Source: Moraxella sp. VT-16-12
GTDB lineage: Bacteria; Pseudomonadota; Gammaproteobacteria; Pseudomonadales; Moraxellaceae
Assembly: GCF_002224245.2 (NCBI RefSeq)
Contig: NZ_NKHK02000001.1
Span: 62,001 to 126,000, forward strand
DNA length: 64,000 nt
Direction of reading: 5' to 3'
This document shows positions 265 through 4,513 of this stretch, in pieces. A program made the translations under genes and the position numbers. Within the stretch, counting starts at the first letter, position 1. Every line of letters begins with the position of its first letter. The notes below the pieces were generated by a model that was given only the letters and a program-made list of their open reading frames with translations, was not told where the DNA came from and searched no databases.

Positions 265-930
265 TTAAATTAAATGGTTTATTTTTAAAAGTTGATTATT
301 AATGATGACAGCATTGGTATTAATGTCTGCATATAATTGAGTCTCATCACCATTATCAAAATGAGAGACATTAGGCAAATTTTTTAAAAAGCCATTAATG
401 TCATCCATCGTCAAAAACCGCCCATGCAAATCAAAGCCCACATTTAAAATACGCCCTTGAACCTGTGCCACTCGGTCATGGATATGCCCATGCAGATGAT
501 AATAGCCTTTGTGGCGGCCGTCCCATTCATGAATGGGATAATGAAATAAAATCAATGTTTGTTTATGCTCAGGCAGTTTTAATTTTAAATAATCTTGTAC
601 CGATGATAATATGGGATTGCCATCGTTTTTAAGTTTATTTAAGAACTTTTCTTTATGTGTGGCGATTAAACTATCATGATTGCCCAGTATTAAATGATGC
701 TGCCCATTTAATTGGCTCAATAGTTTTTCTATGTGTTTAAGATTATGACTAAATGACACATCACCCAAATTATAGACAATATCATCAGGGCTGATAGTAT
801 TATTCCAAAGCTGAATAAGATATTTATCATGTTCATCAATATCATCGGTCTTTGGGCGAAATGTCGGACAAAATTTGATGATGTTTTTATGACTAAAATG
901 CAAATCCGAGGTAAAAAATAGCTTGCTCAT
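265..930 (-). CDS. Calcineurin-like metallophosphoesterase
   Basis: A 221-residue protein with the full two-metal phosphoesterase signature: D9-x-H11 (SDLHFSH), G56-D57 (YNLGDVSF), G83-N84-H85-D86, H130 (LILFHYPIHE) and G148-H149-I150-H151. It resembles the small cytosolic COG4186-type phosphoesterases. No signal peptide is seen. It lies 23 bp downstream of the kinase-ligase gene on the same strand, so the two are probably co-transcribed. In that setting a role in trimming 2',3'-cyclic phosphate or 3'-phosphate RNA ends before ligation is attractive. That is inferred from context; the family also includes enzymes acting on nucleotides and other phosphodiesters. Confidence 0.85.
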   Translation of the reverse strand: MSKLFFTSDLHFSHKNIIKFCPTFRPKTDDIDEHDKYLIQLWNNTISPDDIVYNLGDVSFSHNLKHIEKLLSQLNGQHHLILGNHDSLIATHKEKFLNKLKNDGNPILSSVQDYLKLKLPEHKQTLILFHYPIHEWDGRHKGYYHLHGHIHDRVAQVQGRILNVGFDLHGRFLTMDDINGFLKNLPNVSHFDNGDETQLYADINTNAVIINNQLLKINHLI

Positions 931-953: not shown

Positions 954-2450
954 TTATAAGGTGCTTAAAAACACTTGAATAAACTGGATTTTATCAAGCT
1001 CTGACAGTTGATTAAATGTATCTTGATTGGCTTTGATATGCTCAATCAAAGGATAATATTCTTCATCAACATGACGTTTATCCAGTTTTTTGGTAATATT
1101 TTTATCATTGCTACGCCCCAAAAATTTAGAAATCAAATAAAAGGGAGATTTTAATTTAAATAATAACTCTTTGCTTTGGCTGTCAAAAACCATAAAGCCT
1201 TCGTGTTTGACTTCTTTTAATCGCTGTTTTAAATCACCAAAAGGGATATTTTTGATTTGCTGTGGGCGTTTTAATAAAATGCCACTTTGTTCATAAAAAT
1301 TTTTGGCAATGTCATCCAATCTGTCTTCATCAAACTGTCTGCCTGTCGCCACATCAATCACGCCAATCAAAGTTTCGCCAAAGTCTTCTTTGATGATATG
1401 AACGTCTTTTTCGTCAGTAATCTCAAACAAAAAGGTATGATTGGGATATGCTTTAAAAAGAGCTTCATATTTTTGACAATGAGCTTTATTCATTTTGGCA
1501 AAATCGCTGTCTAATGACCCTGTGGTGGAATATAACACCTGATGATTAAAACTGGCATGATAACTGGGGTGGGTTTTATCTAATGCCACATAAGTACACA
1601 CGCCCAAAAAACCATTGACTTTGACCACCGCATCAACACGCTGTGTATCATCAATGCTAATGGGGTATTTGCTGTTTTTGGCGATACGCTCACTATAATT
1701 AAAGGTTTTTTTAAAGGGGCGTACGATGATATGATGATGTTCATCAATGATTGTACCACGCATCTCTATGAGAGCGTCATCAAAACGGTTATCAAAAAAT
1801 ACCTGTCTTTTATATTTTAAAACAGACAACTGTGGATATAAGTTTGAGCGTTTGCTGGTAAAATTGCGTTTGCCATAGTTTAAATAATCGTCAGTAATAT
1901 GACTTTGACGATTTTTATCAAAGGCGATGGTTTGATTGTCAAACTGAGTTAATTTATCAATCTCTGATTTGATGTCATCACTCATCGGTTTTATGGGTGT
2001 GATATGAATTTCATCACGCAAGCGATTATTATTTAATTTGATATAAGCGGATAAGACGTCATGTAATTTAACATGATGCGTATTATCAAAAAAATTATGT
2101 AGCCGATAAATCTCGGTGGTCAGCCCATGTTTGCGAGCCGAGCGTAATAGATGAATGCAGTTTGATGATTTTTGGTTGGTATTTGAGTTAATCACCAGCA
2201 TCGCCAAATTGCGGTTTTGACGGCATTTATCAAAGGCGTGTTTCATCATGGTTTGACCTGTGCGTACCGCTTTGTCAATACGCTCAGGCGTCCAATGGTA
2301 TCGACCTTGTTCGTCATACAGCAATTTGTCATTTTCAATATGCACAATCTCGCCATCAGGATGGGCCTGTTTAAACTCATCAATTTTGGTTTGGGCAAAG
2401 GTGGATTTGCCTGAGCCTTGATGACCACGAATCAAGATAAATTTTTGCAT
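954..2450 (-). CDS. Polynucleotide kinase-RNA ligase fusion (T4 Rnl1-like)
   Basis: A 498-residue protein. Residues 1 to about 190 form a P-loop kinase domain with Walker A GHQGSGKST at 9-17, as in polynucleotide 5'-kinases. The rest is an RNA ligase of the T4 RnlA/Rnl1 type: nucleotidyl-lysine motif K277-V-N-G, a motif III-like segment (FLFEITDE), motif IV EGFMVF near 417-422 and motif V FKLK near 431-434. This combination phosphorylates 5'-OH RNA ends and seals them. The open frame extends 95 codons further upstream, but I start at the ATG at 2450. It has a Shine-Dalgarno (AAGGAAACC) and starts exactly at the conserved P-loop strand, while the extra codons coincide with a structured RNA. 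Divergent from rtcR. Confidence 0.85.
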   Translation of the reverse strand: MQKFILIRGHQGSGKSTFAQTKIDEFKQAHPDGEIVHIENDKLLYDEQGRYHWTPERIDKAVRTGQTMMKHAFDKCRQNRNLAMLVINSNTNQKSSNCIHLLRSARKHGLTTEIYRLHNFFDNTHHVKLHDVLSAYIKLNNNRLRDEIHITPIKPMSDDIKSEIDKLTQFDNQTIAFDKNRQSHITDDYLNYGKRNFTSKRSNLYPQLSVLKYKRQVFFDNRFDDALIEMRGTIIDEHHHIIVRPFKKTFNYSERIAKNSKYPISIDDTQRVDAVVKVNGFLGVCTYVALDKTHPSYHASFNHQVLYSTTGSLDSDFAKMNKAHCQKYEALFKAYPNHTFLFEITDEKDVHIIKEDFGETLIGVIDVATGRQFDEDRLDDIAKNFYEQSGILLKRPQQIKNIPFGDLKQRLKEVKHEGFMVFDSQSKELLFKLKSPFYLISKFLGRSNDKNITKKLDKRHVDEEYYPLIEHIKANQDTFNQLSELDKIQFIQVFLSTL

Positions 2451-2471: not shown

Positions 2472-2708
2472 TGGTGGACATGACGGGATTCGAACCCGCA
2501 GCAATGAGATGACTGCCGTTTTTAGTCGTACAGCCAAGAAATTTTGTTGGAAAACGTGCGCCAGTGGTTGACCATTTACCATAGCCAGCACCTGCAATCC
2601 GCAACCGTGCCAAAACACCTGCTCGCCCATCTCATCTGGTATTACCCAGCCCGCCCAAGAACCAACGTTTTTGGCGGTGGCGTCCCTTTGTATGCCAACA
2701 TGCCCATG
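2472..2708 (-). ncRNA. Candidate tRNA-mimic / Y-like non-coding RNA
   Basis: Read leftwards from about 2708. A 7-bp acceptor stem can form between GGGCATG (2705-2699) and CATGTCC (2482-2476), followed by discriminator A and CCA (2474-2472). A D-arm-like hairpin GGC/GCC (2696-2694 with 2681-2679) has AAAGGG in its loop. A perfect T-arm has stem GCGGG/CCCGT with loop TTCGAAT (2499-2483). The anticodon arm is replaced by about 170 nt folding back through GCCAA/TTGGC (2675-2671, 2537-2533) and GTTGG/CCAAC (2666-2662, 2550-2546), then a small GACT/AGTC hairpin. This order resembles bacterial Y RNAs (YrlA), known to mimic tRNA and to sit in RtcR-controlled operons. No Ro/TROVE gene is nearby, and I see no clear Ro-binding motif. 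It could instead be an unrelated tRNA-derived RNA. Confidence 0.6.
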
Positions 2709-2718
2709 ATGGTGATAA

Positions 2719-2737
2719 TTCAATTGTTGTGCCAAGT
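2719..2737 (-). promoter_or_regulatory. Candidate sigma-54 (-24/-12) promoter
   Basis: Read leftwards: TTGGCAC, five bases, TTGAA. The -24 half is a perfect consensus and the spacing is right. The -12 half has TTGA instead of TTGC, one departure at a usually invariant base. The predicted start near 2708 lies three bases before the 5' end of the tRNA-like RNA, which supports the call. RtcR, encoded divergently, needs sigma-54, and rpoN is at 37910-39532. Confidence 0.5.
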
Positions 2738-2879: not shown

Positions 2880-2920
2880 GATGGTATCATATTTTGGGGA
2901 TGGATTGATTGGGTAAACAG

Positions 2921-4513
2921 ATGAAAAAAACAGTCATGATTGGTTTTTTGGGCACAGTGCTGGACGATGGATTTAGCCAAAAACGCCACAAAAAATGGCG
3001 ACCTAATGTCAATGTGCATCATGTGCTAGACATTGACCGTGTGGAGCTATTTATCGCTCCGCAGTATGAGCGACTTGCCTTGCAGGTGGCAGATGACATT
3101 TATAGTATTCGCCCTGACATGCACATCAATTTTGTCAATATGCCCCTTGATAATCCTTGGGATTTTGGCGAAGTTTATGAAAAGTTGGCAAGCTGGGCGG
3201 ATAGCTATGAGTTTGATATTGAAAAAGAAAACTATCTGACGCACATCACCACAGGCACGCACGTGGCACAGATTTGTTTGTTTTTGCTGGTAGAGAGTCG
3301 GCAAATCCCTAGCGTGCTACTACAAACTGCACCCCCCAAAGGCGATGATGCTTTGTGCAAAACTGAGCTGATTGACCTTGATTTGGCACGCTATGATGTG
3401 CTTGCCAGTCGCCTAGATACGGTCAAAAACGACGCGATGAAGTTTTTAAAGACAGGCATTGAGACCAAAAACGCTGCCTTTAACCGCTTGATTGGACAAA
3501 TTGAGCAGGTGGCGATGGGCTCAAATTCTCCCATGCTTATCATGGGGGCAACAGGGGCGGGCAAATCTCGGCTTGCCAAACGCATTTATGAACTCAAAAA
3601 AGCTCGGCATTTGGTCAGTGGGCGGTTTGTGGACGTGAATTGTGCCACGCTTCGTGGTGATATGGCGTATTCGGCATTATTTGGTCATAAAAAAGGGGCG
3701 TTTACTGGGGCGATGACTGCCCGAGATGGTTATCTTTTGACCGCTCATAAGGGCGTGCTGTTTTTGGATGAAATTGGGGAGTTGGGAGCCGATGAACAAG
3801 CCATGCTTTTGACCGCCCTAGAAGATAAATCTTTTTATCCGATGGGTTCAGATACACCTGTACATAGTGATTTTTGGCTGATTGCAGGCACCAACAAAGA
3901 CTTAAAAGCGTGTGTCAAGGCAGGGACGTTTCGTGAAGATTTGTACGCTCGCATCAATATATGGCAGTATGTGCTACCTGCCCTTGCTCATAGGCGAGAA
4001 GACATCGCTCCCAACATTAACTACCAGCTTGCGGTGGCAAACCAAGAGCTTGGTCGCACGGTGCGATTTGATAAAGCGGCGTATGAGCGGTATTTGGTGT
4101 TTGCCATGAGCGAGCAGGCGGTGTGGACGGGCAATTTTCGGGATTTGTCCGCCAGTTTATTAAGGCTTGCCACGCTTGCCACAGGTGGGCGGATTGATGA
4201 AGGCTTGGTAGATGATGAAATCAGGAGACTGCTAGATTTGTGGGTAGATGATGAGCCTTTGTGTCATCAACAAGCGGTTTTGTTAAGTCATCAGTTGCAG
4301 CAAAAAATAGAGCATTTGCACATTGATGAATTTGACAAAATGCAGCTGATAAATGTCATCAAGTTTTGTCAAGCACATGACAGTCTGGCAAGTGCAGGGC
4401 GAGCGTTGTTTGATGTCTCACGAAAGGGCAAGACCACCAGTAATGATAGTGATAGGCTAAGAAAATATTTGGGGAAATTTGGAATCACTTGGCAGGACAT
4501 TTGTCGTTTGTAA
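2921..4513 (+). CDS. rtcR: RtcR, sigma-54-dependent activator of RNA repair
   Basis: A 530-residue activator. The N-terminal ~180 residues match the RtcR/CARF-type sensory domain (MKKTVMIGFLGTVLDDG..., later THITTGTHV), which senses an RNA-end ligand. Then comes an AAA+ domain with Walker A GATGAGKS (209-216), the sigma-54 contact loop GAFTGA (259-264) and Walker B VLFLDEIGE. A C-terminal helix-turn-helix region follows. I chose the ATG at 2921 because family members begin there; an in-frame TTG at 2909 with GGGGA upstream would add four residues. Elsewhere RtcR switches on rtcBA after RNA damage. Here the divergent genes are a kinase-ligase and a phosphoesterase, so it probably controls those. 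It ends 3 bp from dedA, tail to tail. Confidence 0.93.
   Translation: MKKTVMIGFLGTVLDDGFSQKRHKKWRPNVNVHHVLDIDRVELFIAPQYERLALQVADDIYSIRPDMHINFVNMPLDNPWDFGEVYEKLASWADSYEFDIEKENYLTHITTGTHVAQICLFLLVESRQIPSVLLQTAPPKGDDALCKTELIDLDLARYDVLASRLDTVKNDAMKFLKTGIETKNAAFNRLIGQIEQVAMGSNSPMLIMGATGAGKSRLAKRIYELKKARHLVSGRFVDVNCATLRGDMAYSALFGHKKGAFTGAMTARDGYLLTAHKGVLFLDEIGELGADEQAMLLTALEDKSFYPMGSDTPVHSDFWLIAGTNKDLKACVKAGTFREDLYARINIWQYVLPALAHRREDIAPNINYQLAVANQELGRTVRFDKAAYERYLVFAMSEQAVWTGNFRDLSASLLRLATLATGGRIDEGLVDDEIRRLLDLWVDDEPLCHQQAVLLSHQLQQKIEHLHIDEFDKMQLINVIKFCQAHDSLASAGRALFDVSRKGKTTSNDSDRLRKYLGKFGITWQDICRL

Follow-up and report, generated by a model that had tools for sequence, protein, structure and literature searches.

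We report a structured, tRNA-like RNA encoded in the window (the whole 64,000-nt stretch of Moraxella sp. VT-16-12 DNA analyzed here), with homologues in several Gammaproteobacteria families in the GTDB sense. The observation of this RNA is confirmed and the existence of an RNA family is near certain; what the family does, we infer. We tentatively propose, at somewhat less than even confidence, that it is a new noncoding RNA family of the RtcR regulon, a tRNA mimic of alanine identity that aids the recovery of translation.

The RNA and its operon in the window

The minus strand does hold all the tRNA-like parts that the sequence-only reading had claimed: a 7-bp acceptor stem (GGGCATG/CATGTCC), a D-like arm (TGGC/GCCA) with GGG within its 12-nt loop, and a T arm in which GCGGG and CCCGT flank TTCGAAT, followed by an encoded CCA. 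The claimed span of 2472-2708 holds except at its upper end, which lies 3 nt too far, the RNA proper running from 2705 to 2472. The intervening domain had been described as one block closed by two 5-bp helices, and this part of the description had to be replaced; the domain is really a series consisting of hairpin A (5 bp), hairpin B, P2, P3/P4, and P5. The complete order is acceptor, D arm, hairpin A, hairpin B, P2, P3 enclosing P4, P5, T arm, acceptor, A73, and CCA, with hairpin A directly after the D arm, at the position of an anticodon arm. Uninterrupted copies are 211-242 nt long. The features are as follows.

2472..2705, minus strand: tRNA-like RNA, 234 nt; covariance models R1 270.7 bits and R2 217.7 bits, the window sequence itself being included in both model alignments
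2699..2705, minus strand: acceptor 5' strand GGGCATG; G3 paired with U70 in 19 of 19 copies (16 of 16 in alignment A8)
2678..2697, minus strand: D arm, 4 bp, loop with GG; 85.5% of cells paired, double change in 2 of 4 pairs
2651..2677, minus strand: hairpin A, 5-bp stem, 17-nt loop; double change in 5 of 5 pairs
2636..2649, minus strand: hairpin B, 4 bp, GUAANA loop; double change in 3 of 4 pairs, loop motif conserved
2628..2635, minus strand: P2 5' strand, 8-bp helix; double change in 8 of 8 pairs
2612..2618, minus strand: P3 5' strand; double change in 7 of 7 pairs across the family, pairing weak in the window's own sequence
2559..2596, minus strand: P4 core hairpin (TGCAGG ... CTGGCGC), conserved in sequence; double change in 5 of 13 pairs, flanks near invariant
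2538..2544, minus strand: P3 3' strand, partner of 2612..2618
2512..2534, minus strand: P5 hairpin; double change in 6 of 7 pairs
2504..2511, minus strand: P2 3' strand, partner of 2628..2635
2483..2499, minus strand: T arm GCGGGTTCGAATCCCGT; 100% paired across 16 sequences
2472..2482, minus strand: acceptor 3' strand CATGTCC, A73 (19 of 19 copies), CCA (18 of 19)
2720..2734, minus strand: sigma54 (-24/-12) promoter TGGCACAACAATTGA, agreeing at 9 of 10 key positions; its start lies 29 nt upstream of the RNA 5' end
954..2450, minus strand: kinase plus T4-Rnl1-like RNA ligase, next gene of the operon; PF09511 4.1e-8
265..930, minus strand: putative metallophosphoesterase, third operon gene, enzyme class assigned from its sequence
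2909..4513, plus strand: RtcR, divergent sigma54 activator; NF038308 721.8 bits, PF06956 2.7e-63

The sequence-only reading's proposal of a new tRNA-like class is supported. So is its suggestion that the RNA is the first product of a sigma54/RtcR operon, given an arrangement in which RtcR is divergent and the -24/-12 site lies upstream of the RNA at a spacing that is identical in the three Moraxella copies (the window, L008, and L010). Over the stretches examined, RtcR was not found near every homologue. Among the downstream genes, the kinase-ligase matches AAA_33 at E 3.5e-4, below the curated cut-off of that family, and a PDB search with it gave no match. The putative metallophosphoesterase matched nothing in Pfam, NCBIfam, or PADLOC, and lies near the kinase-ligase in all relatives examined. 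Four further Moraxella relatives (L003, L009, L011, and L012) lack the RNA but keep the same promoter, 52-57 nt upstream of where the kinase-ligase begins; the RNA is thus an optional part at a fixed position. Its absence from these relatives, and from most of the sampled genomes, implies that it is dispensable.

Homologues and covariation

The window sequence considered singly is no proof of an RNA, since its folding energy is not unusual (z = -0.60) and neither ARAGORN nor Rfam recognized a gene in the interval; the proof is supplied by homologues, which comprise 18 further full-length copies and one degenerate copy. The first to be found were those of the Moraxella relatives L008 and L010 and of an Eleftheria plasmid, the last with 67% identity over 99% of the query (E 3e-6). 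When these three and the window's copy were aligned with MAFFT, 19 of 60 pairs showed double-sided change (0 of 500 shuffles) and 97.5% of cells paired. Covariance model R1, built from the same four sequences and used for further searching, matched a Conchiformibius MAG (182 bits), G276, G069, G280, G1204, G1056, and G526 together with eight further genomes of the family of G526 (9 of 144); R1 matches below about 33 bits, mostly 73-95 nt long and resembling ordinary tRNAs, were left out of the count. The class sample held four true matches in 369 genomes, the window's own included, and three of 22 genomes of the window's genus carry the RNA. A second model, R2, was built from 16 of the sequences, which it matches by construction, with scores of 141-218 bits; searched with it, 17 carrier genomes yielded one full-length copy each. 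Searching the families of G276 and G280 gave no additional homologues, and the RNA was found neither in the phage records searched nor, with L093 as query, in E. coli genomes. Two pattern matches considered as viral relatives (L028 and L029) were rejected as chance, the flanking RNA being absent, as was a match in L042, which is protein-coding.

In the 16-sequence alignment 94.7% of cells pair and 40 of 60 pairs change on both sides; the double-change cells number 193, compared to 63±6 after shuffling (0 of 500) and 23-31 when the partners are slid, although fitting the alignment to the structure, and the relatedness of its sequences, bias these exact figures upward. Both the slid controls and the MAFFT alignment of four sequences, which is independent, argue against the covariation being an artefact. 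Nine helices have covariation support, and among them are the acceptor, D, and T helices on which the tRNA-like reading had been based; double-sided change with pairing kept occurs in three of seven, two of four, and one of five of their pairs, respectively.

Some copies depart from the common form. Those in L087 (=L097), L091 (=L101), and L089 (=L099) have inserts of roughly 15-70 nt, differing in sequence, in the T arm or T loop; the inserts may have inactivated these interrupted copies or may themselves be removed. The degenerate copy (L043, 19-233; 51.6 bits with R2) is located close to the end of a contig, with no repair genes nearby, and ends in CCACG, not CCACCA.

Genomic context of the homologues

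In the three Moraxella copies, in Conchiformibius (L018), on the Eleftheria plasmid (L027), and in L098/L100, a sigma54 site comes first and no other feature was found between it and the RNA, the distance from the start of the site to the RNA being 29, 35, 78, and 52 nt, respectively. In several loci the kinase-ligase or RtcB gene comes immediately after the RNA, and in four others (L083, L096, L101, and L103) the RNA lies between rtcB and rtcA. Elsewhere it is embedded in tRNA genes: in L094, L095, L097, and L099 it has tRNA-Glu on one side and tRNA-Trp on the other, within arrays of 22-27 predicted tRNAs accompanied by Band-7 and HNH genes, and in L074 it lies among 13 tRNAs, with RtcB and Band-7. 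Across loci its neighbors are RtcB, the kinase-ligase, RtcA, Band-7, the CCA-adding enzyme, and RlaP, L103 carrying the last two in addition; at L102 the RNA is accompanied by three tRNA genes and by no tested repair protein. In G276, Ro60 and four YrlA matches lie ahead of the RNA, with RtcB, RlaP, and RtcA behind it. One of these YrlA matches scores 92.3 bits; the other three, with 66, 60.2, and 49 bits, fall short of the 69-bit cut-off, and the weakest overlaps neither the RNA nor RtcB.

Several observations on these loci may be recorded in their own right. Arrays of 13-27 predicted tRNA genes stand beside Band-7/slipin, HNH, and sometimes RtcB genes (L094, L095, L097, L099, and L074), and we regard them as predicted reserve tRNA sets within RNA-repair loci. 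A gene for a CCA-adding enzyme, complete or fragmentary, lies downstream in the same RtcR locus in L098, L100, L103, L101, and L083. A 259-aa protein of no known family is encoded between the RNA and the kinase-ligase in L018 (3423-4202), and four tandem YrlA matches, one above the Rfam cut-off, lie between Ro60 and the RNA in L041 (4463-5311).

Alanine identity elements and a proposed role

G3·U70 and A73, which like the tRNA-array context were absent from the sequence-only reading, are kept in all 19 full-length copies and CCA in 18, while acceptor pairs 4, 5, and 6 vary or covary. The published bacterial alanine identity set consists of A73, G2-C71, G3·U70, G4-C69, and G20 (PMC9976931). Scored on the first four of these, the RNA has the first three, and G4-C69 occurs in one copy only (G280), most copies having C4-G69. 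In the linked arrays the G3·U70 pair is found in two of three predicted tRNA-Ala vs only four of 127 other predicted tRNAs; three of the four arrays of L094, L095, L097, and L099 also hold a predicted tRNA-Ala, so the RNA is not merely the alanine tRNA of the array. The alanine determinants, the CCA end, the elbow, and the placement in tRNA arrays together point to AlaRS and the translation machinery. The neighboring ligases fall into two families with no relationship to each other, which makes a constant partner (AlaRS or the ribosome, for instance) likelier.

Let us consider how such an RNA might act. Fragments of tRNA that end in a cyclic phosphate are known to be sensed by RtcR (PMC7790460). 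In the proposed course, damaged tRNA ends would activate RtcR, whereupon the sigma54 promoter would fire. Whether as the first product or from within the operon, the RNA would be transcribed, then presumably cut out in the manner of a tRNA and charged with alanine at its CCA end by AlaRS. Together with the spare tRNAs and the repair enzymes it would then help translation to restart, most likely by engaging stalled ribosomes in a tag-less, tmRNA-like mode, while RtcB or the kinase-ligase mends tRNAs; tmRNA itself has been reported as an RtcB target (PMC9650030). In its most specific form this proposal would make the RNA a second natural alanine-charged ribosome-rescue RNA, without the tag of tmRNA, providing ribosome rescue within an inducible kit kept in reserve for tRNA damage, alongside spare tRNAs, an RNA ligase, and a CCA-adding enzyme. 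We consider this full combination possible yet rather unlikely. Points against the proposal are the occurrence of G4-C69 in one copy only, the lack of a conserved frame, the restriction of the likeness to tmRNA mainly to the T arm and acceptor, the three possibly dead copies, and the dispensability implied by the patchy distribution.

RNA-repair operons have so far been seen mostly as sets of proteins, joined now and then by a Y RNA. An RNA of alanine identity that travels with RNA ligases and spare tRNA arrays suggests that these operons, besides mending, rebuild the translation RNA pool, and the RNA looks like an unrecognized emergency translation RNA. The identity elements make charging by AlaRS directly testable in one tube, and the covariance model eases finding the RNA in other genomes.

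Alternative explanations

The RNA might instead be a decoy or sensor, offered as bait to tRNA-cleaving nucleases that would cut it in hairpin A or the extra domain, and resealed by the ligase; tRNAs would thereby be spared, or the cyclic-phosphate fragment would keep RtcR active. Such a role would suit the tRNA-like elbow and the occurrence of the RNA with RNA ligases of two unrelated kinds, and YrlA has been suggested to be a competitive inhibitor of an anticodon nuclease (PMC7790460). On the other hand, the RNA has no 7-nt anticodon loop, sits among tRNA genes in arrays, and as bait would have no need for G3·U70, A73, and, in nearly all copies, CCA, or for a near-invariant core. Taken with its details, we find this explanation doubtful.

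A little less probable still is a scaffold or guide that would recruit RtcB, the kinase-ligase, or the Band-7 protein to damaged tRNAs or ribosomes, a role like that of Y RNA toward Ro60. The conserved core hairpin P4 with its near-invariant flanks favors it, and so does the position of the RNA in Moraxella kinase-ligase operons, where it occupies the place taken by Ro60 in the operons of Neisseria and Cardiobacterium (accompanied by YrlA in L013, L014, L016, and L020). However, no one protein is common to all loci, and L102 has none of the tested repair proteins at all. Likewise, use by the kinase-ligase, one of the roles imagined from the sequence, is unlikely as a general rule, most homologues being found with RtcB or tRNA genes.

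We think it improbable that the RNA is only a cis-acting leader or tRNA-like punctuation controlling the processing or expression of the downstream gene; it does stand immediately 5' of the kinase-ligase or RtcB in several loci, but other loci have it flanked by rtcB and rtcA or by tRNA genes, and a leader would not need CCA and the alanine determinants. That the interval is coding, as an N-terminal extension of the kinase-ligase ORF, has been refuted for practical purposes, since the frame 954-2735, open in the window, is contradicted by L010, closed in all three frames, by other homologues, closed differently, by the pairing covariation, and by the kinase-ligases of relatives, which start at MQKF after a short leader.

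Comparison with known RNAs

The Rfam models for tRNA, tmRNA, and YrlA gave no hit above cut-off on the RNA, and no Rfam family matches it. An ordinary tRNA can be set aside, there being no ARAGORN or RF00005 call and no 7-nt anticodon loop; the RNA resembles tRNA-Ala in G1-C72, G2-C71, G3·U70, A73, and the elbow elements, and differs from it in lacking an anticodon loop and in having about 150 nt extra.

YrlA has a T-like arm before a D-like arm, no acceptor/CCA end, and a Ro60-binding stem. Like it, our RNA is a tRNA mimic within RtcR operons, which had led to the suggestion of a Y-like RNA; that suggestion does not stand. In contrast to the permuted order of YrlA on a closed Ro60-binding stem, the RNA follows the order of a tRNA (acceptor, D, extra domain, T, acceptor) and has CCA. 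The YrlA model (RF02553) gave no match on the RNA in any scanned locus, Ro60 was found among the RNA loci only in G276 (stretch examined), and there YrlA and the RNA are separate neighbors.

A second parallel is tmRNA (SsrA, RF00023), which shares G3·U70, A73, the CCA end, the T arm, and a large domain replacing the tRNA body. Its Rfam model is the one most often resembling the RNA, mainly in the T arm and acceptor, at 17-26 bits; over all scans its scores span 12-26 bits, against a cut-off of 47 bits. The RNA differs in its 4-bp D stem (most copies), its extra hairpins A and B, and the lack of a tag frame. A coding tmRNA was rejected, there being no conserved frame upstream of the UAA of P5; G280 has a stop codon before this UAA and L086 lacks the UAA. 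A separate tmRNA scores above the cut-off in 11 of 14 carrier genomes tested (in the window's genome at G000:C57:42762-43119); none did so in G010, G069, and G280, all less than 90% complete. Conserved segments outside the helices were compared with the E. coli rrnB operon and proved complementary to it at chance level only, over at most 8 nt in rRNA and 9 nt in the flank.

The literature searched gave no account of the RNA, the 2016 work of Burroughs and Aravind (NAR 44:8525) lying outside this comparison. That work reportedly includes a novel tRNA-like molecule with Band-7 proteins, and part of the RNA family may have been seen there before. Separately, three Burkholderia loci (L076, L077, and L081) have small tRNA-like genes upstream of a Band-7 gene, without an encoded CCA in L077, which we presume are perhaps related to that molecule. 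They share with our RNA the tRNA-like form and the vicinity of slipin/Band-7 in RNA-repair loci, and differ in being about 50-75 nt long, with no full-length R1 match and no R2 match.

Finally, the trn operon of Anabaena is a stress-induced tRNA array co-regulated with rtcB, under the regulator TrcR (PMC10272220). The portions of that account consulted here mention no such RNA, and its regulator differs from RtcR; the two systems share the logic of keeping reserve tRNAs together with an RNA ligase.
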